From: Bacteroidota bacterium
Lineage (GTDB): Bacteria; Bacteroidota; Bacteroidia; Flavobacteriales; Flavobacteriaceae
Assembly: GCA_024279425.1 (NCBI GenBank)
Contig: JAJRRO010000020.1
Location: 62,001-126,000, forward strand
Reading direction: 5' to 3'
Length of the DNA: 64,000 nucleotides
The position numbers were made by a program, and so were the translations under genes. The notes beneath the pieces are model-generated. The model was not told where the DNA came from. It did not search any database and saw only the letters and a list, made by a program, of their open reading frames with translations. Below are positions 2,300-16,361 of this stretch, in pieces; position 1 is the stretch's first letter; the number at the start of each line of letters is the position of its first letter.

Positions 2300-2386
2300 T
2301 GTGCAAGTATTTGTAATGCAATATACAGTTTTAAAATCGGGAAAATCGAGTAAACCAAGACCGTTGCTTAACCTTTACTTAATATG

Positions 2387-2464
2387 ATAACAATACCATA
2401 ACCCAAAGTAAACGGATTGTTAATCTGACTGTAACCCCACTTTTACAGTGAGGTGATTTATTTG
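2387..2464 (+). promoter_or_regulatory. Pho-box-like promoter P1, lipoprotein/TonB receptor operon
   Basis: Six hexamers lie in an exact 11-bp rhythm: ATAACA at 2387, ATAACC at 2398, TAAACG at 2409, TTAATC at 2420, GTAACC at 2431 and TTTACA at 2442. The last hexamer ends 13 nt before TTTG at 2461-2464, the end of a -7-like element (TTTATTTG against TAnnTTTG). Another pair in a different phase, TTAACC at 2368 and TTAATA at 2379, lies just upstream. The 11-bp repeat resembles PhoP/PhoB boxes of other phyla. Assignment to a PhoB-type regulator is an inference from this and from the phosphate genes around it. Confidence 0.7.
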
Positions 2465-2520
2465 CAGAGTAAAAACAAAAAGAGCTGTATTAAAAAATAA
2501 AATTCAAAAAATTACTCAAA

Positions 2521-3939
2521 ATGAAAAAAATAATTTTATCCACATTGGCTTTGGTCATGTTCACCATGCCTTCATGTGAAAATGATGATGACCCAGCGGT
2601 AATAAAGCCTTTGGCCACCTGTGCTGATGGAATACAAAATCAAGGGGAGACTGAGGTTGATTGTGGAGGGCCTAATTGTCAGCCTTGTGTCACCGTAACA
2701 GCAACTTGTAATGATGGAATAATGAATGGCAATGAAACTGATATCGACTTTGGCGGATCTTGTGCCAAGGTTATAATCGTATCGGGTGAAATTATCGAAA
2801 ACACTACTTGGGAAGCAAAAAACATCTATTTGTTGACGGGTAAAGTAGTGGTGGGCGTAGACGCAACCCTAACCATTGAGCCAGGTACCATCATCAAAGG
2901 TCAAAAAGGTTCTGGGTCCTTGGCTTCGGCATTGATCGTTCAAAGAGATGCCAAGATAATGGCAGAAGGCACCGCCGAAAAACCGATCATTTTTACTTCA
3001 GAAGAAGACAATATTGTTGTAGGACAGACTGCAGGTACCAACTTGGATCAAAACCAAAGAGGACTTTGGGGTGGACTTATCGTTTTAGGGAGGGCATCAG
3101 GTTCTTTTAAGAATGATGTAACCGAGGTACAGATTGAGGGTATTCCCGCAGATGACACCTTCGGGCTATATGGCCCTGGAGACGCCTTAAATGATGCCGA
3201 TAATTCGGGTGTACTAAAATACATCTCTATTCGTCATGGGGGCACCTTAATCGGTGAGGGAAATGAAATAAACGGTCTTACCCTTGGTTCAGTCGGTTCA
3301 GGAACAATCATAGATAATATCGAAGTTGTAGCCAACGTGGACGATGGTATTGAGTTCTTTGGAGGAACTGTAAACGCGACCAACCTATTTGTATGGGCCC
3401 AGGGTGATGATGCCTTGGATATTGATCAAGCATATGCAGGTACTATTGACAATGCTGTGATAATAGCGGGAGATGTTTCTGACCACGCTTTTGAAATTGA
3501 TGGCCCAGAAGGAGCTGCAACTGGCTCTTTCACACTTAAAAATGTAAGTATTTTTGGAAGTTCTGTAGCTCCAAATGGAGAATATGCCGATTATAGAAGT
3601 GGTGCGACCGGAGCAACCGAAAATATTTATGCCATCGGTTTCCAAGCTGGTAAGGATGTAGAATTGGACAACAACGGTGTTGCCCAAAACTTCTTGGATG
3701 GTGATTTGACCTTTGCCGCTTGGGAGGTTGTCGGCTTCGACAATAGCATTTTTGTTGAAAAAGTGGCAAAAGATGATGATGGAGTAGAAATTGAAACCCC
3801 TATAATTTTGGCACCCACTTTTACCGAAAGGGCAGCGACTTGGACCTCTCAAGTTGATAATGGCAATACAATAGTAGGTGCTGATGTAACCGCCTTCGGT
3901 TGGACCTATTCCAACAACAAAGCCGGTTTAGGATTCTAA
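2521..3939 (+). CDS. Surface lipoprotein with right-handed beta-helix-like domain
   Basis: The 472-residue protein starts with a lipoprotein signal peptide (MKKIILSTLALVMFTMPSC). The acidic CENDDD after the lipidated cysteine resembles the lipoprotein export signal of Flavobacteria, so exposure on the cell surface is likely. Residues 33-85 hold two copies of a C-DGI-NG-ET-ID-GG motif; the second has DFGG where DCGG is expected. The rest is a long stretch of short beta-rich repeats (TLTIEPGTIIKG, ISIRHGG, IEVVANVDDGIEFFGG) typical of a parallel beta-helix. It lies 84 bp upstream of a TonB receptor and behind a Pho-box-like promoter, so I infer a binding partner of that receptor under phosphate stress. 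It is not SusD-like. The substrate is unknown. Confidence 0.75.
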   Translation: MKKIILSTLALVMFTMPSCENDDDPAVIKPLATCADGIQNQGETEVDCGGPNCQPCVTVTATCNDGIMNGNETDIDFGGSCAKVIIVSGEIIENTTWEAKNIYLLTGKVVVGVDATLTIEPGTIIKGQKGSGSLASALIVQRDAKIMAEGTAEKPIIFTSEEDNIVVGQTAGTNLDQNQRGLWGGLIVLGRASGSFKNDVTEVQIEGIPADDTFGLYGPGDALNDADNSGVLKYISIRHGGTLIGEGNEINGLTLGSVGSGTIIDNIEVVANVDDGIEFFGGTVNATNLFVWAQGDDALDIDQAYAGTIDNAVIIAGDVSDHAFEIDGPEGAATGSFTLKNVSIFGSSVAPNGEYADYRSGATGATENIYAIGFQAGKDVELDNNGVAQNFLDGDLTFAAWEVVGFDNSIFVEKVAKDDDGVEIETPIILAPTFTERAATWTSQVDNGNTIVGADVTAFGWTYSNNKAGLGF

Positions 3940-3971
3940 TAATTGACAAATAAATAATCCTTTGATCAATT

Positions 3972-3991
3972 GCTCGCCATCAATGGCGGGC
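3972..3991 (+). promoter_or_regulatory. Intercistronic hairpin without U-tract
   Basis: GCTCGCC (3972-3978) pairs with GGCGGGC (3985-3991), with one G-U pair, around a 6-nt loop between the lipoprotein stop and the TonB receptor start. No T-run follows, so it is not an ordinary terminator. It may protect mRNA ends or set the ratio of the two proteins. Confidence 0.4.
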
Positions 3992-4023
3992 ATTTGGTTT
4001 ATTACGAATTAACTAATACATAC

Positions 4024-6852
4024 ATGAAAATAAATTTTAGATTAACCGTTTTAACCCTATTAATCGTTCAATTTGCATTTTCGCAACAAGGAGAGGTGAC
4101 AGGGAAATTGATAGATGCCGATTTCCAAGACCCAGTAGTTTTTGCAAACATTTTAATCAAAGACACCACTAAAGGTACGACTTCAGATTTCGATGGCCGC
4201 TATACCTTTTCCTTGGATGAGGGAACCTATACATTGGTCTATTCCTTTCTAGGTTATGAGACAGTCGAAATAACCGACGTGGTCATTAAACCGGGGGAGG
4301 TGACAACAGCAAATGTCACCATGAAGACTTTGGCACAAGGTCTGGATGAGGTTGTGGTTACGGTAAGTATTAAAAAAAACACTGAAAAAGCTGTCTTAGG
4401 GATTCAAAAGAAAGCTGTGAATCTATTGGATGGACTATCGGCAGAAAGTTTCGAAAAATCTGGAGCAAGTAGCGTGGCAAGTGCTATAAAACGTGTTCCT
4501 GGAGTTTCAGTACAAGGTGGAAAATATGTTTACGTTCGTGGTTTAGGCGATCGTTATACCAAATCCATATTAAATGGCGTGGATATTCCCGGATTAGACC
4601 CGGACAGGAATACCATTCAATTGGATATTTTCCCTTCCAATATCATTGACAATGTGTTGGTTATAAAATCATCATCGGCAGGTTTACCAGCTGATTTTAC
4701 GGGGGGAATCGTGAATATTGTTACTAAAAATTACCCTTCACAGAGTGAGCAAAGCATTTCTTTAAGTGGGACTTACAATCCAGATATGCATTTTAATAGC
4801 GACTATTTAGGCTATGAAGGTAGCAAGACTGACTTTTTAGGTTTTGACAATGGTGCGAGAGATATTCCAATTAATAAAATTCAGGATATTCCCAATACCT
4901 TTGATTATGACCCAAGGCTTACAACAATAACAAAACAATTTAGTCCTGAGCTTTCCGCGTTACGCAATAACAACGGAATGGATTATAGTTTCGGTTTTAC
5001 CGCAGGAAACCAATATAGCGTGGGTGAAGGGACAAATTTAATTGGCTTTTTGGCTTCAGTATCCTACAAAAACAATACTACCTATTATACAGGTGCGGAA
5101 AACAATTTTTATAGAAGAAATTCAGATAAATCAATATTTGAATTGGAAACTGATAGAACACAAAGTGGGGATATCGGAACTAATAATGTTTTGGTAAGCG
5201 GTTTGTTGGGAACGTCATTCAAGACAGAACGTTCCAAGTATAAGCTGAATCTTTTACACTTGCAAAACGGTGAATCCAAAGCCGGTCTTTTTAGTCAGAC
5301 TTTGAACTTTTCGGATTTCATAAACTTTGCCAAGGACAATTTGGAATATACCCAGAGGTCCATAACAAATGTCCTATTAACAGGCAAACATACCAGTAAG
5401 GACGCCACATGGACTACGGAATGGGCCGTTTCGCCCACCCTTTCCAAAATTCAGGACAAGGATATAAGAACAACCTCTTTTCAGGTTGAGGATGGAGTGC
5501 TTTCAATTCCACAAAATAATCAGCCCAAAAGAATATGGCGAGATCTGGAGGAAATCAATGGTGTGGTCAAGTTAGACATTACTAAAAAATATGAGATTTC
5601 GACAAAAGATGCCAAACTTAAATTCGGAGCTTATGGGGCCTATAAGACCCGAGACTTCAGCGTTTTAAATTTTGAGGTCGAAAGCAACGACAATACTACC
5701 ATATACAATGGAGTTGCAGATAATATCCTAAAAGAGGAAAATATTTGGACGGTATTAAACAATTCAGGTTCTTTTATAGATCCCGATATTTCAATAGCAG
5801 AACCTGCGAATACCTATGAAGCGCAACAGCGGAATATTGCAGGGTATGTTTCCAATGAATTTAGGATCGGCGAGAAATTGAGGACCATTGTAGGACTACG
5901 GGTAGAGAATTTCGAATCTATTTACACCGGGGAGGACAATAGAGACATAAATGATACGCAAAAGGTAATTTATGACAAGGAAACTATTATCGATAAAATT
6001 GATTTCTTCCCTACGGTTAATCTTATTTTGGAAACGTCGGAAACCACGAACCTGCGTGGGTCATTTGCCAGAACGACGGCTCGCCCATCATTTAAAGAGG
6101 CTTCTATCGCCAAAATTTTCGACCCGCTCTCGAACAACACCTTTATTGGGAACATTGATTTGCAACCTACTTATGTCAACAATTTTGACTTCAGAGTAGA
6201 ATGGTTCGGGGAAAGTGCTGAGATGATAGCACTGAGTAGTTTCTATAAGAAATTTAAAGATCCTATTGAACTTACTTATTTTGAATCCTCGACCGATAAC
6301 TTTCAGCCGCAGAACTTAGGGGATACAAATGTAATGGGAGTAGAATTTGAGCTACGGAAAAACCTAGGCTTTCTCACCACGACATTGAATAACTTCAGTA
6401 TAAATGTGAATACTTCGGTTATTAAATCTACCCAAAAATTTAGTGAACAGGAACGAAATTTACGGGAACTGGGCCTAAGAGACGGACAAACACTTGGTGA
6501 TGACAGGGAGTTGCAGGGACAATCCCCTTTCCTTATAAATGCAGGTATCAGCTACCAAGGTGAGGAAAATGGTCTGCAAATGGGGCTTTTTTACAATGTG
6601 CAAGGAAAAACTTTGCAAGTGGTAGGCAACGGTTTTGTACCCAATGTGTATACGATGGCTTATCATAACATCAATTTCAATTTGACAAAGACCTTGGGAG
6701 GAAAAAAGAACCAACGCATTACTTTTAAAGTAGCCAATCTATTGGGAGATGATGTCGAAAGTGAATACGGGTCATTTGGAGCGAGCAATCAAACATTTTC
6801 CAAAAGGAGTCCAGGCAGGGCCTTCTCCTTGGGCTATGGCATAAAATTCTAA
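4024..6852 (+). CDS. TonB-dependent outer membrane receptor with CarboxypepD_reg domain
   Basis: The start chosen is the ATG at 4024 (MKINFRLTVLTLLIVQFAFSQ), which gives a clean signal peptide and 942 residues; the open frame reaches further up to 3970 without a plausible signal. After cleavage comes a carboxypeptidase-regulatory-like domain (about residues 24-105, SDFDGRYTFSLDEGTYTL, FLGYETVEI). The plug follows (VASAIKRVPGVSVQGGKYVYVRGLGDRY, with GGIVNIVTK at its end), then a beta-barrel ending in ...FSLGYGIKF with the terminal aromatic residue usual for outer membrane barrels. It would import a substrate across the outer membrane with TonB energy. Its place behind promoter P1 and beside phosphate transporters suggests phosphate or a phosphorus compound, but this is inferred from context alone. 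Confidence 0.9.
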   Translation: MKINFRLTVLTLLIVQFAFSQQGEVTGKLIDADFQDPVVFANILIKDTTKGTTSDFDGRYTFSLDEGTYTLVYSFLGYETVEITDVVIKPGEVTTANVTMKTLAQGLDEVVVTVSIKKNTEKAVLGIQKKAVNLLDGLSAESFEKSGASSVASAIKRVPGVSVQGGKYVYVRGLGDRYTKSILNGVDIPGLDPDRNTIQLDIFPSNIIDNVLVIKSSSAGLPADFTGGIVNIVTKNYPSQSEQSISLSGTYNPDMHFNSDYLGYEGSKTDFLGFDNGARDIPINKIQDIPNTFDYDPRLTTITKQFSPELSALRNNNGMDYSFGFTAGNQYSVGEGTNLIGFLASVSYKNNTTYYTGAENNFYRRNSDKSIFELETDRTQSGDIGTNNVLVSGLLGTSFKTERSKYKLNLLHLQNGESKAGLFSQTLNFSDFINFAKDNLEYTQRSITNVLLTGKHTSKDATWTTEWAVSPTLSKIQDKDIRTTSFQVEDGVLSIPQNNQPKRIWRDLEEINGVVKLDITKKYEISTKDAKLKFGAYGAYKTRDFSVLNFEVESNDNTTIYNGVADNILKEENIWTVLNNSGSFIDPDISIAEPANTYEAQQRNIAGYVSNEFRIGEKLRTIVGLRVENFESIYTGEDNRDINDTQKVIYDKETIIDKIDFFPTVNLILETSETTNLRGSFARTTARPSFKEASIAKIFDPLSNNTFIGNIDLQPTYVNNFDFRVEWFGESAEMIALSSFYKKFKDPIELTYFESSTDNFQPQNLGDTNVMGVEFELRKNLGFLTTTLNNFSINVNTSVIKSTQKFSEQERNLRELGLRDGQTLGDDRELQGQSPFLINAGISYQGEENGLQMGLFYNVQGKTLQVVGNGFVPNVYTMAYHNINFNLTKTLGGKKNQRITFKVANLLGDDVESEYGSFGASNQTFSKRSPGRAFSLGYGIKF

Positions 6853-6872
6853 TGAAACACGTTGCATTAAAT

Positions 6873-6910
6873 CAAAGCCTGCTTTTTGGCAGGCTTTGGT
6901 CTTTTTTGGT
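6873..6910 (+). terminator. Intrinsic terminator after TonB receptor
   Basis: CAAAGCCTGC (6873-6882) pairs perfectly with GCAGGCTTTG (6889-6898) and a T-rich run follows. It separates the receptor transcript from the next Pho-box-like promoter. Confidence 0.8.
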
Positions 6911-6980
6911 ACTTGTCAATGACATTAGAGTGCGAGGCATCGCCCTCAAGATTTATCCTTTTAGTTTTATACTATGCCTG

Positions 6981-7047
6981 TTAACAATTTTATCATTCAT
7001 TCTTAACCTATGTTTAACCCAAACTTTACAGGGCCTAACTTTCTTTG
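6981..7047 (+). promoter_or_regulatory. Pho-box-like promoter P2
   Basis: Hexamers at 11-bp spacing: TTAACA 6981, ATCATT 6992 (weak), TTAACC 7003, TTAACC 7014 and TTTACA 7025. The last ends exactly 13 nt before TTTG at 7044-7047 (-7-like TTTCTTTG). The start codon of the next gene is 18 nt downstream of TTTG. Confidence 0.72.
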
Positions 7048-7064
7048 CAATACAATTAACTCAG

Positions 7065-7466
7065 ATGAAAAAAATACTTTTTTTATTCTTTTTTTTAGTC
7101 GCAGGAAACAGTATTGCCCAACATACAGGTGCTATCAAAGGTAATATCGTCGATTTGGAAATGGGTAATGACCCCCTATTACTTGCTCAGGTCTCCATCA
7201 AAAATACCGCTTTGCATACACAGACCAATTTCCATGGCAATTTTGAAATTTCAAATATTGATTCTGGCCGTTATATCTTGACAATATGCTATTTGGGTTA
7301 TGAGACCTTGGAAATGCCCATTGTGATTAAAGAAAATGGTGTTGCGAAAATCAATGGTGGACTAGGGGCTATGCGTATCAGTTTGGACGATGTGGCAGGT
7401 TTAAATTCGGTAGCAAAAGAAGGTATTGGAACGATCTTAAGTTCAGAAAAAAGCCTTCGTCCTTAA
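7065..7466 (+). CDS. Secreted orphan carboxypeptidase-regulatory-like domain protein
   Basis: The start is the ATG at 7065 (MKKILFLFFFLVAGNSIAQ), which gives a signal peptide and 133 residues. The longer open frame from 6852 is rejected because it runs through a terminator and promoter P2. The mature protein is essentially one beta-sandwich of the CarboxypepD_reg type (AIKGNIVDLE, NFHGNFEISNIDSGRYIL, YLGYETLEMP). This is the same kind of domain that forms the N-terminus of the TonB receptor next door, and the FHGNFEI/DSGRYIL part aligns well with it. There is no plug or barrel. It may be a free periplasmic module that binds receptor or substrate, or a leftover of a duplicated receptor. The promoter suggests phosphate-stress expression. 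Confidence 0.7.
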   Translation: MKKILFLFFFLVAGNSIAQHTGAIKGNIVDLEMGNDPLLLAQVSIKNTALHTQTNFHGNFEISNIDSGRYILTICYLGYETLEMPIVIKENGVAKINGGLGAMRISLDDVAGLNSVAKEGIGTILSSEKSLRP

Positions 7467-7588
7467 TTCAGGAACTAATCCTTTATTTCATATTACCATT
7501 TTACGGTAATTCCAATTTATATCATCCTAATATTTTCAAAAAAAACACCTTCAAAAGGAGATGCACGTATTCGTCGAGTTTTCTAAAA

Positions 7589-7948
7589 CTATCTGTGATT
7601 CACTATACCTTTGGCACCTTCAATTTGTGTTACACCAGCAATCGCATTGTTACTGTATTCTACTTCCTTCAGGATTTCATCCGACCAAAAAAACCATTTC
7701 CCAGTTTTAAGTCCATTCTTATAGGACCCTTCCGAAATCTTTTCACCTGCCTCATTGAAACTGACCCATTTTCCGTGTAATTTACCATTTACTGTAAAGG
7801 TTCCCTGCTGACAGACCTGCCCATTTTCGTGGTAATAGGTAGCCTCGATCAGATTGGTATCCTCATTCAATTTTAATTCTTTATCTTTTTGGGCATACGT
7901 CACCACAGTTACCAGTAGTATGGTTACAAGAAGTATGGTTTTTTTCAT
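7589..7948 (-). CDS. Secreted MORN-repeat protein
   Basis: The start is the ATG at 7946-7948 (MKKTILLVTILLVTVVTYAQ), giving a signal peptide and 119 residues; the upstream in-frame TTG at 7975 lies in the -7 element and is rejected. The mature part has repeats of the MORN_2/YwqK kind (YYHENGQVCQQGTF, HGKWVSFNEAGEKISEGSY, GLKTGKWFFW). Such repeats are often called YwqK-like antitoxins in automatic annotation, but no toxin gene is adjacent and a signal peptide argues against a cytoplasmic antitoxin. It is convergent with the preceding gene and has its own Pho-box-like promoter (P3), so it is probably an exported member of the same regulon. Function unknown. Confidence 0.75.
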   Translation of the reverse strand: MKKTILLVTILLVTVVTYAQKDKELKLNEDTNLIEATYYHENGQVCQQGTFTVNGKLHGKWVSFNEAGEKISEGSYKNGLKTGKWFFWSDEILKEVEYSNNAIAGVTQIEGAKGIVNHR

Positions 7949-7972
7949 GATTATCAGCTTTAAAGTGCTACA

Positions 7973-8028
7973 CAAATATAATTATTTTACCTTAAAATCA
8001 CCTTTACTTAACATTAAGTTTACATTAA
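7973..8028 (-). promoter_or_regulatory. Pho-box-like promoter P3 (MORN gene)
   Basis: Read on the minus strand, hexamers TTAATG (8023-8028), TTAATG (8012-8017), TAAAGG (8001-8006) and TTAAGG (7990-7995) lie 11 bp apart. The last is followed after 13 nt by TTTG (7973-7976), part of a perfect TAnnTTTG element, TATATTTG, at 7973-7980. Transcription should begin near 7966, about 18 nt before the ATG. Confidence 0.72.
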
Positions 8029-8077
8029 AATTGTGTCTATCCGAAGTTTTATAACCGTTCGTGCTAGGCTAAAAATC

Positions 8078-8133
8078 TTAATAATTACTTAATGTTAGTA
8101 TTACAATCACGTTATTTTGAAAGTTAATCTTTG
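8078..8133 (+). promoter_or_regulatory. Pho-box-like promoter P4, no protein gene downstream
   Basis: Hexamers TTAATA 8078, TTAATG 8089, ATTACA 8100 and GTTATT 8111 are spaced by 11 bp. The last ends 13 nt before TTTG at 8130-8133 (-7-like AATCTTTG). No convincing start codon follows before the terminator at 8212-8238, so this promoter seems to drive a short non-coding transcript. Confidence 0.65.
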
Positions 8134-8139
8134 TCGTGT

Positions 8140-8238
8140 CTTGAGACTAACAATTAGTATTTTCATATAATCTATTAGTTTTTGTCGACTATATTATCAT
8201 GGATTCTAATGACTGCCTTTGGCCAAGGCAGTTTTTTT
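8140..8238 (+). ncRNA. Candidate Pho-regulated small RNA, about 100 nt
   Basis: The left end is estimated from promoter P4 (start about 7 nt after TTTG). The right end is the T-run of a strong terminator: ACTGCCTT (8212-8219), loop of 5, AAGGCAGT (8225-8232), then seven T. Near the 5' end ACTAA/TTAGT can form a small hairpin with a CAA loop. The only ATG (8200) opens a frame that runs straight through the terminator stem, so coding is unlikely. The transcript ends before the porin's own promoter (8247-8302), so it is a separate unit and not just a porin leader. Everything here is predicted from sequence; expression is unproven. Confidence 0.55.
8212..8238 (+). terminator. Intrinsic terminator of the candidate small RNA
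   Basis: The stem is 8 perfect base pairs with a 5-nt loop and is followed directly by a run of seven T. No protein gene on the plus strand ends upstream of it within 700 bp. Confidence 0.8.
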
Positions 8239-8246
8239 GTTGTTTA

Positions 8247-8302
8247 TTTATTAAAAGTTAATATTCTAAAAACATTAACTTAACATTGGGGTTGGTTATT
8301 TG
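8247..8302 (+). promoter_or_regulatory. Pho-box-like promoter P5 (porin)
   Basis: Hexamers TTTATT 8247, TTAATA 8258, AAAACA 8269 and TTAACA 8280 are spaced 11 bp apart, and the last ends 13 nt before TTTG at 8299-8302. The segment TTATTTGCAG is shared with promoter P1. The porin ATG follows at 8325. Confidence 0.7.
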
Positions 8303-8324
8303 CAGCGACAAAAACTAATACTTG

Positions 8325-9530
8325 ATGAAATTACACAGTTTGGCCTTCGGCCTACTCCTTTTCTTATCCTCAATGTCTTTTTCCCAAGAAAATAGCAATT
8401 CAAACTTTGGAAAAGGGCTTATCAATACAATTGGCAAAGACAGCGCCTGGGCTATGAAAGTTGGGCTACGCACCCAATTCTTATCAGGTGCATCATGGGA
8501 TACCGGTAATGATACTGGTTTAACAAATCCAGAGCAAAACTTCCTGATTCGCAGGGCACGATTAAAATTTGAGGGTTTCGCGTACACGCCAAAACTAAGG
8601 TATAAATTTGAACTTGGTCTATCAAATAGGGACCTCTCAGGTGCTTCTACATTCACAAGTAATGCCCCAAGGTATATTCTTGATGCTGTGGCCATGTGGA
8701 ACTTTTATGAAAATTTCGAATTATGGGTCGGTCAAACCAAATTGCCGGGCAATATAGAACGCGTAATTTCCTCTGGCAACTTACAGCAGGTAGACCGTTC
8801 ATTATTGAATAGCAGATTTACACTTGATCGTGACCAAGGCATTCAACTAAGACATCATTTTAACTTGTCTGAAAAATTCCTAGTGCGTGAAAAGTTTGCC
8901 ATATCACAAGGAGAAGGCAGGAATGTTACCAGTGGAAACTTAGGGGGCCATCAATATACATCAAGACTGGAGCTTTTGCCTTTTGGGACGTTTGAAAGTA
9001 AAGGGGATTATAGTGGTAGTGATCTTGAAAGGGAGAAAACACCCAAATTAATGCTTGCTGCGACCTACGATAGCAATCAGAACGCAGTAAAAAGCAGAAG
9101 TAACCAAGGTTCCTATATGACGAACGATATCGGTTTTTACGAAACCACAATAAACACCTTCTTTTTGGATGCCATGTTCAAATACAATGGTTTTTCCTTA
9201 ATGGCTGAATATGCCAATAGGGATGCAAAAGACCCTTTTGCAAAGAATTCAGATGGCACGTTGACAGGGGATGAGGTTCAAGTAGGTAGTGCCCTCAACC
9301 TACAAACAGGGTATTTGTTTCCAAGCAATTGGGAAGTTTCAGCAAGGTATACCCATATTAAATTGGATGAAGTAATCACTGGCAAAAATCCAGAAACCCA
9401 ATATACTTTGGGCTTATCTAAATATATTGCTGGGCATAAATTAAAGGTACAAACCGATCTAAGTTATTTGTCTGTTGAGAACGATGTTGATAGTTTAATG
9501 TATCGTTTACAATTGGAAGTTCATTTCTAG
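8325..9530 (+). CDS. OprP/OprO-like phosphate-selective porin
   Basis: The start is the ATG at 8325 (MKLHSLAFGLLLFLSSMSFSQ), giving a signal peptide and 401 residues. The barrel pattern is that of the phosphate-selective porin family: NFLIRRARLKFEGFAYTPKL, RYKFELGLSNRDL, ELWVGQTKLPGNIERVISSGN and DRDQGIQLRHHF, closing with ...YRLQLEVHF and a terminal Phe. It would let phosphate or polyphosphate cross the outer membrane, feeding the inner membrane transporters encoded downstream. Promoter P5 sits immediately upstream. The ion preference cannot be read from sequence alone; pyrophosphate or general anion passage are alternatives. Confidence 0.85.
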   Translation: MKLHSLAFGLLLFLSSMSFSQENSNSNFGKGLINTIGKDSAWAMKVGLRTQFLSGASWDTGNDTGLTNPEQNFLIRRARLKFEGFAYTPKLRYKFELGLSNRDLSGASTFTSNAPRYILDAVAMWNFYENFELWVGQTKLPGNIERVISSGNLQQVDRSLLNSRFTLDRDQGIQLRHHFNLSEKFLVREKFAISQGEGRNVTSGNLGGHQYTSRLELLPFGTFESKGDYSGSDLEREKTPKLMLAATYDSNQNAVKSRSNQGSYMTNDIGFYETTINTFFLDAMFKYNGFSLMAEYANRDAKDPFAKNSDGTLTGDEVQVGSALNLQTGYLFPSNWEVSARYTHIKLDEVITGKNPETQYTLGLSKYIAGHKLKVQTDLSYLSVENDVDSLMYRLQLEVHF

Positions 9531-9535
9531 ATGAT

Positions 9536-9580
9536 TTAAGTTATATTTTTAATCATCTTAACTGTGCAATTTTATATCTT
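9536..9580 (+). promoter_or_regulatory. Weak Pho-box-like promoter P8 (first PiT gene)
   Basis: Between porin and PiT, hexamers TTAAGT 9536, TTTTAA 9547 and TTAACT 9558 lie 11 bp apart, and 13 nt later comes TCTT (9577-9580) within TATATCTT, a poor -7 element. The geometry matches the other seven sites, so this may be a secondary promoter inside the operon. Confidence 0.45.
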
Positions 9581-9599
9581 ATACCAACCAAACTGAATT

Positions 9600-11867
9600 A
9601 TGGATAATATTTACTTTTTAATGATCGTAGCCCTTGCCGTTCTGGCCATTGCAGATCTTGTCGTAGGCGTCAGTAATGATGCAGTTAACTTTTTAAATTC
9701 CGCGTTGGGATCCAAAGCTATTTCCTTTAAAACCATTATGATAGTTGCCAGTCTGGGTATTGCATGTGGGGCTGTATTTTCCAGTGGTTTAATGGAGGTC
9801 GCTCGAAAGGGTATTTTTGTGCCGGGAGAATTTATGTTCAGTGAAATTATGATCATATTCATGGCCGTAATGATTACTGACATTTTGTTGCTCGATTTTT
9901 TCAATACATTAGGCATGCCTACTTCTACAACGGTCTCCATTGTATTTGAATTATTAGGTGCAGCGGTTGCCATGGCCTTGATTAAAATCGGGGCTGCAGG
10001 CGGTTCCTTTTCAGAAGTGGCAACCTACATCAATACTACAAAGGCAACAGAGATTATTCTAGGGATTCTGATTTCGGTCGTTGTCGCGTTCTCGATAGGG
10101 GCCGTAGTGCAGTACGTATCTCGTATTTTGCTCTCATTCAATTTTGAAAGAAAGGCGAAATGGGTAGGAGCACTATTTGGTGGTTTTGCCTTAGCCGCCA
10201 TTACCTATTTCATTTTTATAAAAGGGCTAAAGGGCACGGATTATTACGCAGAAATAAAGCCCATGATAGAAGGTAAAACAGGAATAATCATTGCAGCTAG
10301 CTTTATACTCTGGTCCTTGTTGTCTTATATTTTCGTAACCGTATTCAAAAAGAACATATATAAGCTGATCATCGCGGTGGGTACCTTCGCATTGGCCTTG
10401 GCATTCGCGGGCAATGATTTGGTGAATTTCATTGGCGTACCAATAGCTGCGTACCAATCCTATATCGCCTGGGTGGCATCAGGAATCCCAGCCACTGAAT
10501 TTGCTATGGATATATTGGGCCAAAAAGTTCAAACACCTACAATTTTTCTTCTTTCTGCCGGCTTGGTCATGGTATTGACCCTATGGTTCTCAAGCAAAGC
10601 AAAGAAAGTGGTCAAAACCTCCATCGATTTGTCTAGCCAAGGAGAGACCCAAGAACGATTTAATCCTAACTTTTTGTCCAGGAACTTGGTGCGGTTTACC
10701 ATGCTTGCATCAAAATACACGGCCACTGTGATTCCTGCGGCGATTCAAAATAAAATTGAAAGCCAGTTTAAAAAACCTATCGTAGAGCTTCCGAAAGGAA
10801 AAACCCACGAATTACCCGCCTTTGATATGGTCCGTGCCGCTGTTAACCTGATGGTCGCCAGTGTTTTGATATCCATTGCAACTTCAATGAAATTACCCCT
10901 TTCCACAACTTATGTGACTTTCATGGTTGCCATGGGTACATCATTGGCTGATAGGGCTTGGGGCAGTGAAAGTGCTGTTTATAGAGTCGCAGGGGTTCTG
11001 AATGTGATTGGTGGATGGTTCTTTACTGCAATTTGTGCATTTATTGCTGCAGGTACGGTGGCCTATTTAATACATCTTGGTGGAGGGGCCATGATAGCGG
11101 TCTTACTTTTGTTAGCCGCCCTTTTATTAATACGAAATTATGTAAATCATAAGAAAAAGACTCGAGGAGTCAAAGCTGAAGATAGCTTGAACAAAGCAGA
11201 AAGTAGCTCAATACATGGTGTTATCGAAGAAAGTGCTGATAATATTTCCAAAGCGCTTAAAAGGGTTAGTAAAATAAACCAGAATACCATAAACGGTCTG
11301 ATAAACCAAGATTTGGATGCACTTAAAAAAGCCAAGAATACGGTGGTGAAACTTGAGAATGAAATAGAAGAATTACAGAACGATATTTTCTACTTCATCA
11401 AGGACCTTGATGATTCGTATTTAGGTGCCAGTAAATTTTATATTGATGTAATCGGAAGCATCCAAGATGTGGCACAATCTTCTAGCTTAATTGCCAAAGT
11501 AAGCCATAAGCATGTGAATAATAACCACAAGGCCCTAAAGAAGAAGCAGGCTGAGGAACTATTGGAAATCAATGAAAAACTGGTACACCTATTCGGTAAA
11601 ATAAGGGGCATTTTTGATGCACGCGCCTTCCACGAAATAGTCCCGGATATAATAGAAGAAAAAAAGGCCCTTTTAAGCAGTGTACAGGAATCAATTCAAA
11701 GACAGGTTGAACGCACACGCACCGAGGAATCGAGCCCTAAAAACACCACTCTTTATTTTAGTATATTGTTGGAGACACAAGATTTGATCAAAGCGAACAT
11801 GAACATTCTGAATTTGTATTTTGAAGAGCACAACAATACTAGGATAGACAAGGAAACAGCTGAATAA
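9600..11867 (+). CDS. PiT family inorganic phosphate transporter with PhoU-like C-terminal domain (copy 1)
   Basis: The 755-residue inner membrane protein has both PiT signature segments: GVSNDAVNFLNSALGSKA near residue 25 and AGNDLVNFIGVPIAAYQ near residue 270, each in a run of membrane helices, and a third conserved block at LPLSTTYVTFMVAMGTSLADRAWG near residue 440. PiT proteins couple phosphate uptake to protons or sodium. After the last helix (about residue 515) a soluble helical region of about 220 residues resembles PhoU/DUF47 and ends in a conserved TRTEESSPKNTTLYFS block. The fusion makes it much longer than the usual 400-500 residues of PiT. It lies 69 bp after the porin and is probably co-transcribed with it. 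Copy 2 starts at 14073. Confidence 0.9.
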   Translation: MDNIYFLMIVALAVLAIADLVVGVSNDAVNFLNSALGSKAISFKTIMIVASLGIACGAVFSSGLMEVARKGIFVPGEFMFSEIMIIFMAVMITDILLLDFFNTLGMPTSTTVSIVFELLGAAVAMALIKIGAAGGSFSEVATYINTTKATEIILGILISVVVAFSIGAVVQYVSRILLSFNFERKAKWVGALFGGFALAAITYFIFIKGLKGTDYYAEIKPMIEGKTGIIIAASFILWSLLSYIFVTVFKKNIYKLIIAVGTFALALAFAGNDLVNFIGVPIAAYQSYIAWVASGIPATEFAMDILGQKVQTPTIFLLSAGLVMVLTLWFSSKAKKVVKTSIDLSSQGETQERFNPNFLSRNLVRFTMLASKYTATVIPAAIQNKIESQFKKPIVELPKGKTHELPAFDMVRAAVNLMVASVLISIATSMKLPLSTTYVTFMVAMGTSLADRAWGSESAVYRVAGVLNVIGGWFFTAICAFIAAGTVAYLIHLGGGAMIAVLLLLAALLLIRNYVNHKKKTRGVKAEDSLNKAESSSIHGVIEESADNISKALKRVSKINQNTINGLINQDLDALKKAKNTVVKLENEIEELQNDIFYFIKDLDDSYLGASKFYIDVIGSIQDVAQSSSLIAKVSHKHVNNNHKALKKKQAEELLEINEKLVHLFGKIRGIFDARAFHEIVPDIIEEKKALLSSVQESIQRQVERTRTEESSPKNTTLYFSILLETQDLIKANMNILNLYFEEHNNTRIDKETAE

Positions 11868-11876
11868 GTCTTATTT

Positions 11877-11908
11877 AAAAGGCACTTCATTGAAGTGCCT
11901 TTTTTATT
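11877..11908. terminator. Bidirectional terminator between PiT copy 1 and NptA
   Basis: AAAAGGCACTTCA (11877-11889) and TGAAGTGCCTTTT (11891-11903) form a near-perfect stem with A and T runs on either side. It can stop transcription from both converging genes. Confidence 0.8.
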
Positions 11909-13668
11909 TTATTTATCGTTTTCCGATAAAGAATCGGTCTCACCATAGAGCAGTTCGGCAACTTCAATAAGCTTTTTAATCATATTATTCACGTTAGAAT
12001 AATCATTGAATAAGGAAGAAGCCATTTCTGCAGAAATCAAATCCTTCCTTATTAATTTATCTATGGATTTATTGCTTTGCCTAATATTCTCTTTAGCTTC
12101 CTTATTTAGTCGATCTAGCTTCTCAGCATAATCCTTCGCATCATCTGCCTTCCTGAAAAGATAAATAACCCTTAAAACCTTACCCACTTTTCTCCTAAAG
12201 CTATCATAAACCCTCGATAATGGCTTATTGTCAAAATTCATGGATAAGGTAAGGTTCTTGTTCAATTGCCCTACGGCTTTCACTATTTCGACCATTTTGC
12301 GATTTGCTACCTTAATGTCTGTAATAGCATTGTTCTGTTTATTGGTAAGCTTTAAATTATTTTGTGCGGTGGTGGCATATTTAATGATTTCACCGTAAAT
12401 AGACTTTGCTTTTTTATAATATAGTTCGTCAACATCAACCTGCATATTCTTGGTCGACCTCTTTACAATTTTCTTTATTTTTTTATCGGACTTAATATCT
12501 TCTCTATGAATATTAAGGCCATGCGCCACAATCTCAAAGATTGCATTCTTATAAAGATATTTAGATTCCTCGACCAAAGCGGAAATTACAGTTCCAGGAA
12601 ATTCGAGAATTTCCCTGTTCAAGAATTTTGGCTCATCAATATCCTTATCGACTCTTTCTTTGAAAAATCTCAATAATACCTTCTCCATTTTTTTAATAAA
12701 GGGAATCATCAACAAGACTCCAAGAACATTAAAAATAGTATGGAACAATGCCAGTTTCAAGGTATAGTCTGTCTCCAAAATGCCAACAGCATCCGACAAT
12801 GTATTGACCAAATTTGTCAACGGATAAAGAAATGCCAAGGCCACGATACCTGTAACCAAATTAAAAATAAAATGTGCCCCTGCGAGTCTTTTCCCTGAAA
12901 TATTAGAACCCACGGAACCCAAAATAGCGGTGATTGTCGTACCGACATTTGCACCAATAGCAAGAGCCAAAGCATTTTCATACTCTATCTGACCAGCAGC
13001 CAAAGCCGTTAAGATTAGTGCCAGGGTGGCACTACTTGATTGTAGAATTGTAGTTATGACGATTCCAAGACCCGTATAGATAACAATACCTAGAAAACCC
13101 GGAATTGCATATCGTGTAAAATCAATATATTCTTTGAATACATCGAAACCTTCTTTCATATAGTGTATCCCCAAAAAGAAAAAGCCAAGACCTGCCAGAA
13201 CATTTCCCATGCCTTTTAGCGATGCTCTTTTCTGAAAGGAAAAAATAATACCAAAAACCAACATAGACATGGCAAAAGCCGATATCTTAATCTTTAAACC
13301 AAAACCAGCTACCAACCAAGCTGTTGCAGTTGTGCGATGTTTGCTCCGAGTATTAGGCCTAATCCCCCCGCTAAACTTATCAAACCCGCACTGATAAAGG
13401 AGATTGTAATTACCGAAACCAAGGAACTAGACTGAATCAATGCTGTTACAAAAGCTCCACCAGTTATACTCTTATAAAGTTTATCAGTGGCCTTTTTCAA
13501 AAGATTTTGTAGAGGACCTTTGGTAAAGACCTTAAAACCTTCTTCCAGCATGATCATCCCAAATAGTAAAATGGCAACCCCTGCTACAATGGTTTTGAAA
13601 TTTGGATTAAAATATAGGACAACGCAAAGAGCAACTAAAAATGTGTAGAACAATGACCTTCTGAACAT
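11909..13668 (-). pseudogene. Na/Pi cotransporter (NptA/PNaS type) with PhoU-like tail, one-base frameshift
   Basis: Two open frames together make one Na/Pi-cotransport protein of about 586 residues. The first (13668 down to 13309) ends in LGLILGANI followed by a foreign tail and a stop. The second begins with VAGFGLKIKISAF, only through a TTG codon. Inserting one base near 13334-13336 gives GANIGTTATAWLVAGF, the conserved glutamine/threonine-type repeat of this family. QSSS motifs occur in both halves (IQSSSLVSV and LQSSSATLALIL), as expected for the inverted repeats that form the ion path. The last 220 residues are a PhoU-like helical domain. The promoter is P7. There is no slippery heptamer at the break, so programmed frameshifting is unlikely; recent mutation or a base-call error fits better. 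Confidence 0.8.
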
Positions 13669-13767
13669 ATCTTAAATCTATACATAATTCATCGTATTCA
13701 TTTCAAAAAAAGGATGGCACCAACACTCTTTTTAAGCCTATCTTTTTAATCTTGGGAAGATGCTTTT

Positions 13768-13786
13768 GAATTCCAAATTGGAATTC
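13768..13786. repeat. Near-perfect palindrome in NptA leader
   Basis: A 19-bp palindrome reading GAATTCCAA, one central base, TTGGAATTC lies about 100 nt before the NptA start, within its predicted leader. It could be an operator or an RNA hairpin. Purpose unknown. Confidence 0.5.
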
Positions 13787-13788
13787 AC

Positions 13789-13855
13789 GAAATAAATCGA
13801 AGAACTTATTATTTGATGTTAACTTAAAGTAAATGTAAGGTAAAATAATAGTAAG
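13789..13855 (-). promoter_or_regulatory. Pho-box-like promoter P7 (NptA)
   Basis: On the minus strand the hexamers are CTTACT (13850-13855), TTTACC (13839-13844), TTTACT (13828-13833), TTAACA (13817-13822) and a weak TAATAA (13806-13811), all 11 bp apart. After 13 nt comes TTTC (13789-13792) in TTTATTTC, close to the TTTATTTG of P1. The three central hexamers are among the best in the window. Confidence 0.68.
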
Positions 13856-14004
13856 TAAAACCTTCACAGAACGATAATCAATGCCCAATTCTATGATTTT
13901 TATGTCCAAAATCCCAAACTCTCAATCAAACCTATTTAGCCCTAAAGCAGTAGAATAAAGTACTGTCAAATTTATTCGCAAACAAAAAACCAAATCAAAA
14001 ATTG

Positions 14005-14049
14005 ATAACGTTTACATTACATTGATTTTAAGGATTTAAAGTACGTTTG
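14005..14049 (+). promoter_or_regulatory. Pho-box-like promoter P6 (second PiT gene)
   Basis: Hexamers ATAACG 14005, ATTACA 14016 and TTTAAG 14027 are 11 bp apart, and the last ends 13 nt before TTTG at 14046-14049. The -7 element TACGTTTG (14042-14049) matches TAnnTTTG perfectly. The ATG of PiT copy 2 is 23 nt further. A second pair, TTTACA 14011 and TTGATT 14022, has the same period in another phase. Confidence 0.68.
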
Positions 14050-14072: not shown

Positions 14073-16361
14073 ATGGATAACATTTACCTTCTTATGATAA
14101 TCGCTTTGACCGTCCTGGCCATTGCGGATTTAGTTGTGGGAGTCAGTAATGATGCCGTGAATTTTTTGAATTCGGCTATAGGTTCCAAAGCCATATCCTT
14201 TCGTACGATTATGATTGTAGCAAGTATTGGTATTGCTTGTGGGGCGATTTTCTCAAGTGGCATGATGGAAGTTGCAAGAAAGGGAATTTTTAATCCTGGC
14301 GAATTCATGTTTAGCGAAATCATGTTCATTTTCATGGCTGTGATGATTACTGATATTCTACTATTAGATTTTTTCAACACCTTGGGAATGCCCACCTCCA
14401 CAACGGTTTCAATTGTTTTTGAGCTATTGGGAGCAGCAGTGGCCATGTCATTGATTAAAATCGGTGTTGATGGCGGCGACTTTTCGGATGTTGTCAACTA
14501 TATAAACACTTCTAAGGCTTTTCAAATAATCATGGGAATTCTACTCTCAGTGGTTGTGGCATTTTCGATCGGTGCACTAGTTCAATGGATTTCCAGATTG
14601 CTGCTTTCATACAATTTTGAGAAAAAAGCCAAGTGGGTTGGTGCCTTGTTCGGCGGGGTGGCTTTATCGGCAATCACTTATTTTATCCTTATGAAGGGGA
14701 TAAAGGGTACCACCTATGCATCCCAAAGTTTTGAGGTCATCGGTGGAATGACCATCAAAGATTTTTTGGAAGTCAAGATATGGGCTATCATACTTATCAA
14801 TTTCTTAATGTGGTCTTTACTTTCATATGTGTTAATGATCCTAGCGAAAATCAATATTTATAAATTGATAATTGGGGTTGGCACATTTGCACTTGCCTTG
14901 GCCTTTGCCGGTAACGATTTGGTTAATTTTATAGGTGTTCCCATTGCCGCCTATCAGGCCTATGAAGCATGGTCTGCTTCTGGAATGGTCGCAACTGAAT
15001 TCAGCATGGACATTCTTGCCGAAAAAGTCCCCACCCCAACATTACTTCTTTTTATCTCTGGAATGATTATGGTCGCCACTTTATGGTTTTCAAAAAAAGC
15101 CCGATATGTCGCTGAAACCGAGATAAACCTTTCAAGGGAAGGGGAAGCCAAAGAACGTTTTCAACCCAACTTTCTCTCACGAGGTATCGTTAGATTATCA
15201 ATTGCCTTATCCAAGGCCTCTAGCCTATTACCATCTTCAATACGAAAGAATATAGATAACCAATTCCACAAACCGGTTATTACACTCTCCAAGGATAAAA
15301 CCTATAAGTTACCCGCTTTTGATATGGTAAGAGCTGCCGTTAATCTCATGGTGGCAGGTATTTTGATTTCCATAGCCACTTCCTATAAATTGCCTTTGTC
15401 AACTACCTATGTTACTTTTATGGTAGCCATGGGAACGTCATTGGCAGATCGTGCTTGGAGTGCCGAAAGTGCCGTCTATAGAGTTGCGGGGGTATTGAAC
15501 GTCATTGGAGGATGGTTTGGCACGGCCATTATAGCCTTTATCGCATCTGGAGCTATCTTAACGATAATTAGTTTCGGTAAAGGGGCGGCTATCGCCGTAT
15601 TGCTCTTCGCCGCTATTTTATTACTAGCTAGAAATTATATTTCATATAACCGGAAATCCAAGGAAATCAAGGCCGAGGATAGTTTGCGGAAAGCAGAAAG
15701 TAGCTCTATTCAAGGAGTCATTGAAGAAAGTGCCAATAACATAGCCCGCGTGGTCAAACGTGGCAATAAGATCTACACAAATACAATCAACAGTCTGGCC
15801 AGACAGGACTTGAATCAGTTGAAGAAAAATAAAAAACAAGTTTCAAAGCTGTCTGCAGAAATAGATGACCTCAGGGACAATCTTTTCTATTTTATTAAAA
15901 ATCTAGATGAGGCCAGTGTAGGTGCCAGTAATTTCTATATTAATATACTGGGTTATCTGACCGACATTACGCAATCGCTGGACTATATTACCAAAATAAG
16001 CCATAAGCATGTAGACAATAATCACAAGAAACTTAAGTACAATCAGATCAAAGAGCTCAAATTGATTAACAATGAATTGGAAGTCTTACTGAACAAGACA
16101 AAAAATGCATTTGACAACCGTTCTTTTGAAGAGATTGGCGTTTTGCTAAATAACAAGCAAATACTGTTTAAAATGGTCTCCCAAAAAATAGCGGCCCAGG
16201 TGGCTAGAACACGAACAGAGGAATCCAGTCCTAAAAACACCACCTTATATTTTTCGCTTTTATTGGAAACAAAAGATTTAATAACAGGAATTATGAATCT
16301 ACTGGAGTCCTATTACAACGAACATGATAGTTCTATAGAACCAACAAGGTTAGAAGAATAG
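14073..16361 (+). CDS. PiT family inorganic phosphate transporter with PhoU-like C-terminal domain (copy 2)
   Basis: The start is the ATG at 14073 (MDNIYLLMIIALTVLAIADL), which matches the start of copy 1; the TTG at 14067 is rejected. The 762-residue protein carries the same PiT signatures (GVSNDAVNFLNSAIGSKA, AGNDLVNFIGVPIAAYQ, LPLSTTYVTFMVAMGTSLAD) and the same PhoU-like tail with TRTEESSPKNTTLYFS. The two copies are clearly paralogues along their full length and flank the NptA gene. Copy 2 has a longer loop around residues 210-235 (GTTYASQSFEVIGGMTIKD). It has its own promoter with a perfect -7 element, which may give it a basal level that copy 1 lacks. Confidence 0.9.
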   Translation: MDNIYLLMIIALTVLAIADLVVGVSNDAVNFLNSAIGSKAISFRTIMIVASIGIACGAIFSSGMMEVARKGIFNPGEFMFSEIMFIFMAVMITDILLLDFFNTLGMPTSTTVSIVFELLGAAVAMSLIKIGVDGGDFSDVVNYINTSKAFQIIMGILLSVVVAFSIGALVQWISRLLLSYNFEKKAKWVGALFGGVALSAITYFILMKGIKGTTYASQSFEVIGGMTIKDFLEVKIWAIILINFLMWSLLSYVLMILAKINIYKLIIGVGTFALALAFAGNDLVNFIGVPIAAYQAYEAWSASGMVATEFSMDILAEKVPTPTLLLFISGMIMVATLWFSKKARYVAETEINLSREGEAKERFQPNFLSRGIVRLSIALSKASSLLPSSIRKNIDNQFHKPVITLSKDKTYKLPAFDMVRAAVNLMVAGILISIATSYKLPLSTTYVTFMVAMGTSLADRAWSAESAVYRVAGVLNVIGGWFGTAIIAFIASGAILTIISFGKGAAIAVLLFAAILLLARNYISYNRKSKEIKAEDSLRKAESSSIQGVIEESANNIARVVKRGNKIYTNTINSLARQDLNQLKKNKKQVSKLSAEIDDLRDNLFYFIKNLDEASVGASNFYINILGYLTDITQSLDYITKISHKHVDNNHKKLKYNQIKELKLINNELEVLLNKTKNAFDNRSFEEIGVLLNNKQILFKMVSQKIAAQVARTRTEESSPKNTTLYFSLLLETKDLITGIMNLLESYYNEHDSSIEPTRLEE

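Follow-up and report, generated by a model that had tools for sequence, protein, structure and literature searches.

In Escherichia coli, PHO boxes replace the −35 promoter element, in Bacillus subtilis the repeats of PhoP read TTAACA, and in enterobacteria porins are silenced by the small RNAs (sRNAs) MicF, MicC and RybB. PHO boxes are 11-nt direct repeats that are bound head-to-tail by a regulator of the OmpR family (accessible parts of PMC4415409 and PMC3978041). As far as the available parts of the respective papers go, the phoBR cluster of Flavobacterium johnsoniae includes an OprP gene together with a TonB receptor and lipoproteins that are induced, OprP itself being not significantly changed (PMC8115612), PhoB of Bacteroides fragilis binds the pstC promoter (PMC3547664), and putative Pho boxes are found at plcP clusters of marine isolates, among which the presence of a flavobacterium is not evident from the accessible text (PMC4796936). 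Here we analyze a phosphate island of a Bacteroidota bacterium of the family Flavobacteriaceae (assembly GCA_024279425.1; 5.27 Mb, 140 contigs; hereafter G000), located in a stretch of 64,000 nt (contig JAJRRO010000020.1, positions 62,001 to 126,000; hereafter the window), in which arrays of 11-bp repeats precede several genes and a putative sRNA gene lies upstream of a porin gene. The explanation that, as a whole, we consider probable is that PhoB-type operators activate the porin gene and that an antisense sRNA acts as a brake on the porin.

In the window, the predicted porin mRNA begins with GACAAAAAC, to which the sRNA loop GUUUUUGUC is antisense, and this match is kept across many related genera. 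The elements involved are the following.

8138 to ~8235, plus strand: small RNA of ~98 nt, with predicted +1 at 8138 (TTTG+8) and a terminator hairpin at 8211-8233
8175 to 8187, plus strand: antisense loop of the sRNA, TTAGTTTTTGTCG, with the core GTTTTTGTC at 8178-8186
8307 to 8324, plus strand: predicted porin mRNA leader, with the sRNA target GACAAAAACTAA at 8307-8318
8325 to 9530, plus strand: porin coding sequence (Porin_O_P, by Pfam)

Porin orthologues were sought in 60 relatives, 36 of which gave a match, and in named genomes, from which 80 loci with flanks of up to 8 kb were kept (L094-L173). The gene labels in these 80 loci follow homology, with cross-matches between related genes. 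Both the TTTG of the −7 element and the leader motif were identifiable as anchors in 69 of the 80 porin loci; the promoter profile leaves out the other 11. Given that the −7 box of F. psychrophilum spans −12 to −5 (available part of PMC9723704), the +1 is expected eight nt past the first T of TTTG. The motif GACAAAA begins at TTTG+8, the predicted +1, in 50 of the 69 porin promoters and at +9 in 18, and the sRNA core is therefore antisense to the predicted message start. The predicted porin leader comprises 16-25 nt (median 19), and the end of the leader motif precedes the ATG by a median of 10 nt (7-16; 9 nt in the window).

Pairing was analyzed in 76 sRNA/leader pairs, 70 of them distinct, with kinship ignored. 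The nine core pairs are intact in all 70 distinct pairs, a conservation that is partly due to selection of the data because the rows were found via the core, so that the flanks provide the real test. Flanking positions −1, −3 and −4 (none of 1000 shuffles as good) and −6 (p = 0.003) pair better than they do with shuffled partners. Compensatory changes, i.e. changes on both sides of the duplex, were identified in L053, L102/L108 and L137, and longer matches in L134/L135; the cognate duplexes of L102, L108, L135 and L053 outdo all 69 others. In predicted folds, the sRNA core is displayed as a loop, with a mean unpaired probability of 0.88-0.92 at six of the nine core positions. These observations point to sRNA-target complementarity that is conserved and accompanied by compensatory changes.

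The leader motif also co-occurs with the sRNA. The comparison covered 27 genomes whose porin reaches at least 45% identity, without nine that are more distant, and scored G016 as present by position. In this set, GACAAAAA precedes the porin in all 16 genomes with the sRNA and in two of the 11 without it (Fisher p = 1.2 × 10−5, uncorrected for relatedness). Of these 11 genomes, nine still carry an array scoring at least 12; the motif is thus lost without the sRNA despite retention of the array, which indicates that it tracks the RNA and not the promoter. Within G000, CGACAAAAACTA occurs in three places (the porin leader, the sRNA and a second sRNA copy on contig C97), and the reversed control also occurs in three, so that only the locations are informative. 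In G012, the sRNA and the leader precede a different porin-like gene.

The initial annotation had listed a putative small RNA as just one further target of the arrays; it now appears, by sequence, to be a real, conserved RNA. The core GTTTTTGTC was found within 700 nt upstream of the porin match in 62 of the 80 named loci (only 83 nt of upstream sequence are available in L142), and in 57 of these 62 a perfect 6-bp hairpin followed by TTT lies 3' of the core. In a 42-row alignment, the terminator stem shows both-side changes in eight of nine pairs, with 96.8% of the cells paired and no equal among 500 shuffles, suggestive of an independent RNA with an intrinsic terminator. A first alignment of 17 sequences had yielded almost no structure with RNAalifold, because the terminators were misaligned, and was abandoned. 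No reading frame common to the sRNA homologues was seen by eye, no formal coding test having been made. In Rfam 15, neither the window nor 13 homologous loci gave a match at the gathering score; membership in the RNAI-type antisense RNAs (RF00106) was rejected at 22.7 bits against a gathering score of 47.

A covariance model of the sRNA gave strong matches (E ≤ 3 × 10−5) in 17 of the 60 relatives and matches at E ≤ 0.01 in 29; of seven weak matches inspected (E from 10−3 to 10−2), six lacked the core and one, in G016, was genuine, lying upstream of the porin. In an order-wide draw of 296 genomes, 14 had an sRNA match at E ≤ 10−4. The nine matches besides G000 at E ≤ 3.3 × 10−7 all have the leader motif just downstream, two of them reading like L134 and L135, and the four weakest have no leader motif. 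No sRNA copy was detectable with the model in several Maribacter genomes, so the sRNA is probably dispensable.

The profile of the 69 porin promoters shows C at −37, −26 and −15 from TTTG, TT at −24/−23 and T at −13/−12, i.e. three copies of the repeat unit TTAACATTNNN. The porin −7 element reads GTT[A/C]TTTG (GTTMTTTG) rather than TAnnTTTG, with G at −4 in 67 and T at −3 in 68 of the 69 promoters, a deviation that is as expected for activator-dependent promoters. For the analysis of spacing, the array part alone was used, without the TTTG, to scan the 80 loci as well as C97; porin promoters were set aside, as were exact repeats. Among 283 non-porin arrays scoring at least 8, TTTG follows the last repeat after 13 nt in 50 and after 24 nt (13 + 11) in 49; the runner-up offsets are 30 nt (10 arrays) and 15 nt (9), and ~2 are expected per offset from shuffled spacers. 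Relatedness of the genomes inflates the array counts but not the offset preference, and the two peaks therefore reveal two direct geometries, one repeat apart. Arrays with TTTG at 13 or 24 nt are found at 72 of 80 porin, 28 of 62 sRNA, 19 of 39 TonB, 17 of 38 CarbopepD, 20 of 78 PiT2 and 1 of 41 MORN genes, and at eight others. In the consensus of the sRNA-promoter class, the last repeat is degenerate and the strong repeats stand one step upstream, as they do at the sRNA and PiT2 sites of the window. NptA and NptN of relatives yielded one match of at least 10 each among the 80 loci.

In the window itself, the arrays are arranged as follows.

2398 to 2464, plus strand: lipoprotein/TonB operon array, hexamers at 2398, 2409, 2420, 2431 and 2442, TTTG at 2461-2464
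7003 to 7047, plus strand: CarbopepD_reg gene array, TTAACC, TTAACC, TTTACA and TTTG (0 mismatches to the stricter hexamer pattern described below, matrix score 11.2)
7973 to 8026, minus strand: MORN promoter, TTTG at 7976-7973, with an inverted array whose best 30 nt are 7997-8026 (plus strand)
8078 to 8133, plus strand: sRNA array, TTAATA at 8078, TTAATG at 8089, ATTACA at 8100 and degenerate GTTATT at 8111, TTTG at 8130-8133
8258 to 8302, plus strand: porin array, TTAATA at 8258, AAAACA at 8269 and TTAACA at 8280, TTTG at 8299-8302
13789 to 13844, minus strand: NptA array, TTTACC, TTTACT, TTAACA (ending at 13817) and degenerate TAATAA, TTTC at 13792-13789
14005 to 14049, plus strand: PiT2 array, ATAACG, ATTACA and degenerate TTTAAG, TTTG at 14046-14049, with orthologous sites in L095, L110 and L124

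The initial annotation had described eight promoters of one rigid architecture, in which the last TTAACA-like hexamer ends 13 nt before TTTG, TCTT or TTTC. All eight coordinate pairs were re-read exactly as claimed, and matrix scans of the window and of other stretches of G000 bear out 11-bp arrays that are real and clustered at phosphate genes. The single architecture, however, gives way to three arrangements: direct repeats ending 13 nt from the −7 end, direct repeats whose strong copies end 24 nt off, and the inverted array at MORN. The sites at 2461, 7044 and 8299 are confirmed as described. Those at 8130 and 14046 carry arrays, but with a degenerate last hexamer and the strong repeats one step upstream, and belong to the second class. 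At NptA (13792, minus strand), the array likewise stands one repeat upstream (11.3 at register 13803); its −7 end is TTTC, and the site has thin support in relatives. The MORN site (7976, minus strand) had been read on the wrong strand, the array scoring 27.6 in the inverted and 2.8 in the gene orientation, and the PiT1 site (9558/9577; score −21.2, rank 516) is not a credible member. On the whole, what had been observed is partly confirmed and its interpretation partly supported.

These grades rest on a matrix trained on the 69 porin promoters from other genomes and scanned along both strands. The site at 8299, which is an orthologue of the training set, scores 41.7; outside the training set, 7044 scores 11.2 (rank 4), 7976(−) 8.4 (rank 5), 14046 6.0 (rank 7), 8130 5.2 (rank 8) and 2461 2.4 (rank 10), and 13792(−) scores −1.0 (rank 14). 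Of the ten best places of this matrix in the window, nine are inside the island and the tenth is at 36646. Five window matches score at least 8 (8299 among them), compared to 0.13 expected from 30 Markov copies. In 380 kb from 19 other stretches of G000, chosen blind, the full matrix found three matches of at least 4, the best at 6.3. On C97, it gave 24.0 before the CarbopepD gene, 20.7 before the sRNA copy and 19.7 before the TonB operon, all paralogues of the island. A stricter hexamer pattern, designed on window sites and informative only at one mismatch or fewer, gave five such matches in the whole genome (three in the window, one on C97 and one at C34:4519); the 2461 site, low in the porin matrix, is a one-mismatch match to this pattern, for whose design these very sites had served. 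The C34:4519 match has TTTT instead of TTTG before what is, by eye, a phosphoglycerate mutase-like gene, and was treated as chance.

Taken together, these arrays are 11-bp direct repeats upstream of phosphate-starvation genes with a fixed placement relative to the promoter. This supports, as far as sequence goes, the view that they behave as PhoB/PhoP-type operators at the −33 position, rigidly spaced from the TTTG that ends the −7 element, and mark phosphate genes; their position suggests that they replace the −33 element.

The reach of the arrays was followed to pstS by a search for PF12849 in the 60 relatives, which gave ten strong matches (E ≤ 10−19) and weaker ones. A generic hexamer model, applied to nine of the ten, detected an in-register array with TTTG in six (L230, L232, L234-L237), ~110-125 nt ahead of the domain (shuffle p from 0 to 0.013). 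In L233, L238 and L239, this model found no in-register array, although L233 shows repeats by eye, followed by TTGTG. The tenth pstS, L231 in G016, lies directly behind the porin and shares the porin promoter (score 42.0); in G006 and G007 (L230 and L232), pstS is likewise directly behind the porin, with its own PHO array. None of 20 weak PBP_like_2 matches passed the array test; since the 300 nt scanned ahead of the domain frequently fall within coding sequence, these matches make a poor control, and shuffles are a better one. The expectation that matrix hits would concentrate at phosphate genes was thus borne out for pstS (6/9), the TonB operon, the CarbopepD gene, the sRNA and, in part, PiT2, with PhoX mixed and PhoA-type genes failing. 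Separately, homologues of a dGTPase gene in L124, L129, L130, L155 and L157 (~2000-3000, minus strand) have PHO-like arrays upstream, with scores of 10-18.

At MORN orthologues, an array scoring at least 8 runs opposite to the gene in all 41 upstream regions (L165 and L167 being copies of each other), as it does in the window and on C97; an additional array in the gene orientation is present in 11 of the 41. In 16 of 43, the inverted array is followed by TTTG after 23 nt. In 10 of the 41 loci, the 450 nt on the opposite side contain no sRNA core, which suggests that the inverted array is MORN's own. In B. subtilis, PhoP sites on the other strand accompany repression, and the MORN gene is possibly repressed at low phosphate.

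To find a candidate regulator, G000 was searched with TIGR02154, giving 34 receiver-domain matches, four of them full-length, with the best on contig C124 (C124:13219). This protein combines Response_reg (PF00072) with Trans_reg_C (PF00486) and is followed by a gene with HisKA and HATPase_c domains, as is typical of OmpR/PhoB-type systems; its DNA-binding domain matches OmpR-family structures including that of E. coli PhoB (1gxp, E = 4.6 × 10−14). In Aquimarina, orthologues of the response regulator and the histidine kinase (77-79% and 65-68% identity, respectively) lie directly behind porin and PiT genes in three loci; in the 2 kb of the porin stretch that were compared, two of these loci are identical. 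C124:13219 is thus likely the PhoB of the arrays, a name given by context and not by the family cut-off. In the array-bearing G000, PhoU had no match at E ≤ 0.001 and PBP_like_2 a single weak one (E = 6.4 × 10−10), so that phosphate sensing may bypass Pst-PhoU.

From these comparisons we infer a response to phosphate in this species that would run as follows. Under phosphate limitation, a C124-type regulator would bind the 11-bp repeats head-to-tail where the −33 element would sit and would aid sigma-A RNA polymerase where the −7 element is poor (GTTMTTTG in the porin promoter); such aid would account for the fixed spacing of 13 (or 13 + 11) nt. The island regulon would comprise the TonB/lipoprotein operon, the CarbopepD gene, the porin, PiT2, probably NptA and the ~98-nt sRNA. 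The sRNA loop would pair in trans with the predicted porin mRNA start, most likely hindering ribosome access, and one regulator would drive the porin as well as its brake, in an incoherent feed-forward loop. Extended further, this scheme would make the RNA a dedicated phosphate-starvation sRNA family of marine Flavobacteriaceae, in a PHO regulon whose three operator geometries set strength or sign, the sRNA and PiT2 responding late or more weakly and MORN being possibly repressed, a tentative proposal towards which we lean slightly less than away from it.

Several observations weigh against this explanation. The advantage of cognate over non-cognate duplexes is small (~2.0 kcal/mol on average; mean rank 0.29), and the cognate duplexes of L044, L101 and L164 are no better than non-cognate ones. 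G001 and G004, both fragmented assemblies, retain the leader motif with no sRNA detected, and in G023 (L272, C1:707503) the sRNA lies ~0.5 kb before a PiT gene, with no complementary target seen in the ~700 nt downstream. As to the arrays, 184 of the 283 non-porin arrays have TTTG at none of 13, 24 and 2 nt, and an array with TTTG at 13 or 24 nt is present at only 1 of 15 lipoprotein starts and 4 of 78 PiT1 genes. Arrays of at least 6 precede PhoX in 5 of 17 cases, a mixed result, and PhoA-family phosphatases in 1 of 30, and the latter were rejected as regulon members. Finally, C124:13219 scores below the TIGR02154 PhoB equivalog cut-off (212.3 vs. 296.2 bits), and the matrix scan found no match of at least −2 at its locus.

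Given pairing, a brake on porin translation is the favored role of the sRNA, with some margin of doubt, ahead of protection of the message and, last, of action in cis after read-through. If the sRNA paired with the 5' end of the porin mRNA and protected or opened it, the loop would be a coherent feed-forward one; pairing at the predicted extreme 5' end, where a duplex could shield the message, and the PHO arrays at both genes are compatible with this, but the duplex ends a median of 10 nt (7-16) before the ATG, within the known reach of a starting ribosome, which favors blocking, and we regard protection as unlikely, though the most serious of the competing possibilities. Alternatively, read-through from the sRNA promoter could form a long-range hairpin that hides the porin start, the two stretches being close on one strand (104-156 nt apart in most loci). 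Such action in cis appears improbable, considering that a strong covarying terminator and a full porin promoter intervene and that the distance extends to 198-348 nt in L097, L098, L100, L115 and L137. Still less credible is a leader motif that functions as a promoter-proximal DNA element or translation enhancer, with the complementarity a by-product of a repeated site: the motif is A-rich and has a fixed place after TTTG (+8 in 50 and +9 in 18 of 69), but it is gone in nine of the 11 genomes without the sRNA, nine of the 11 keeping the PHO array, and the compensatory changes and the loop display within the sRNA already disfavor this account.

Besides the mode of action of the sRNA, the identity of the regulator and the arrays themselves can be questioned. 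That an OmpR-family protein other than C124 reads the arrays is conceivable in view of the 34 receiver-domain matches, four of them full-length to TIGR02154; only the orthologue of C124 adjoins porin and PiT genes (in the three Aquimarina loci), and we think another reader rather unlikely, marginally more so than protection of the message. Chance matches in AT-rich sequence could be invoked because a loose hexamer pattern was unenriched over the whole genome (30 matches vs. 68 in the reversed control, an uninformative result for which the matrix was substituted), because the stricter pattern gave 49 vs. 45 at three mismatches or fewer, and because 9558 looks like chance. Against the 69-promoter profile, the concentration in the island and on C97, the pstS arrays and the spacing peaks, chance is refuted for the arrays as a group and stands for 9558.

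The remaining genes of the island, identified by Pfam except where stated, are as follows.

2521 to 3939, plus strand: lipoprotein coding sequence, no Pfam family
4027 to 6852, plus strand: TonB-dependent receptor coding sequence, spanning 2521 to 6852 together with the lipoprotein
7065 to 7466, plus strand: CarbopepD_reg-like gene
7589 to 7948, minus strand: MORN_2 gene
9600 to 11867, plus strand: PiT1 coding sequence (PHO4), own array unsupported here
11909 to 13668, minus strand: Na_Pi_cotrans gene (NptA), in two frames, 13668-13309 and 13315-11909
14073 to 16361, plus strand: PiT2 coding sequence (PHO4)

The two overlapping reading frames of the Na/Pi cotransporter (119 + 468 aa) indicate a frameshift in the gene or in the assembly. 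C97 carries a second, partial copy of the island (L229, 17 kb), partly decayed, at ~3485-10800, with a dGTPase-like fragment, the TonB receptor, the lipoprotein, the CarbopepD gene, the MORN gene, the sRNA with PHO arrays and a cut-off porin; in the promoter of the latter, ~7 bp are gone between the array and TTTG.

Compared with described systems, the arrays have the same 11-nt direct repeats as the PHO box of PhoB in E. coli and PhoP in B. subtilis, but differ, judging by sequence, in lying 13 or 24 nt from a Bacteroidota −7 element that ends in TTTG, in comprising three or more repeats and in the inverted form at MORN. The regulons of F. johnsoniae and B. fragilis are under PhoB/PhoR of Bacteroidota, to which the candidate regulator of the island would correspond, and the F. 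johnsoniae gene classes are shared with the island, but the available parts of these accounts give no operator consensus, spacing or sRNA, and 'pho box' and 'promoter' occur 0 times in the accessible text of PMC8115612. Rfp18 of F. psychrophilum, as described in the available part of PMC9723704, is also a conserved flavobacterial sRNA with hairpins, and is set apart from the window sRNA by its targets, metalloproteases and an adhesin, with which it pairs via its third stem-loop. The open-licence literature yielded no Bacteroidota operator consensus or spacing, in agreement with the initial annotation, which knew of no published consensus with this spacing in the phylum, and no porin sRNA under phosphate control; since most subscription papers lie outside the literature searched, this is weak evidence that none has been described. 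The present analysis offers an operator rule (TTAACATTNNN repeats with TTTG 13 or 24 nt away) and a regulator candidate for the phosphate response of an abundant marine group, together with an sRNA for which evolution supports one target site, at the very 5' end predicted for a message, in Bacteroidota, to our knowledge a phylum without Shine-Dalgarno sequences and one in which, in our judgement, sRNA mechanisms are poorly known. RNAI-type RNAs (RF00106), of which the window sRNA is not a member, follow a similar antisense loop logic. Like MicF, MicC and RybB, the window sRNA is complementary to the 5' leader of the mRNA for an outer-membrane porin; unlike in those cases, its target consists of the first nucleotides of a leader that is very short and lacks a Shine-Dalgarno sequence, and the sRNA gene adjoins its target, with which it would share the regulator.

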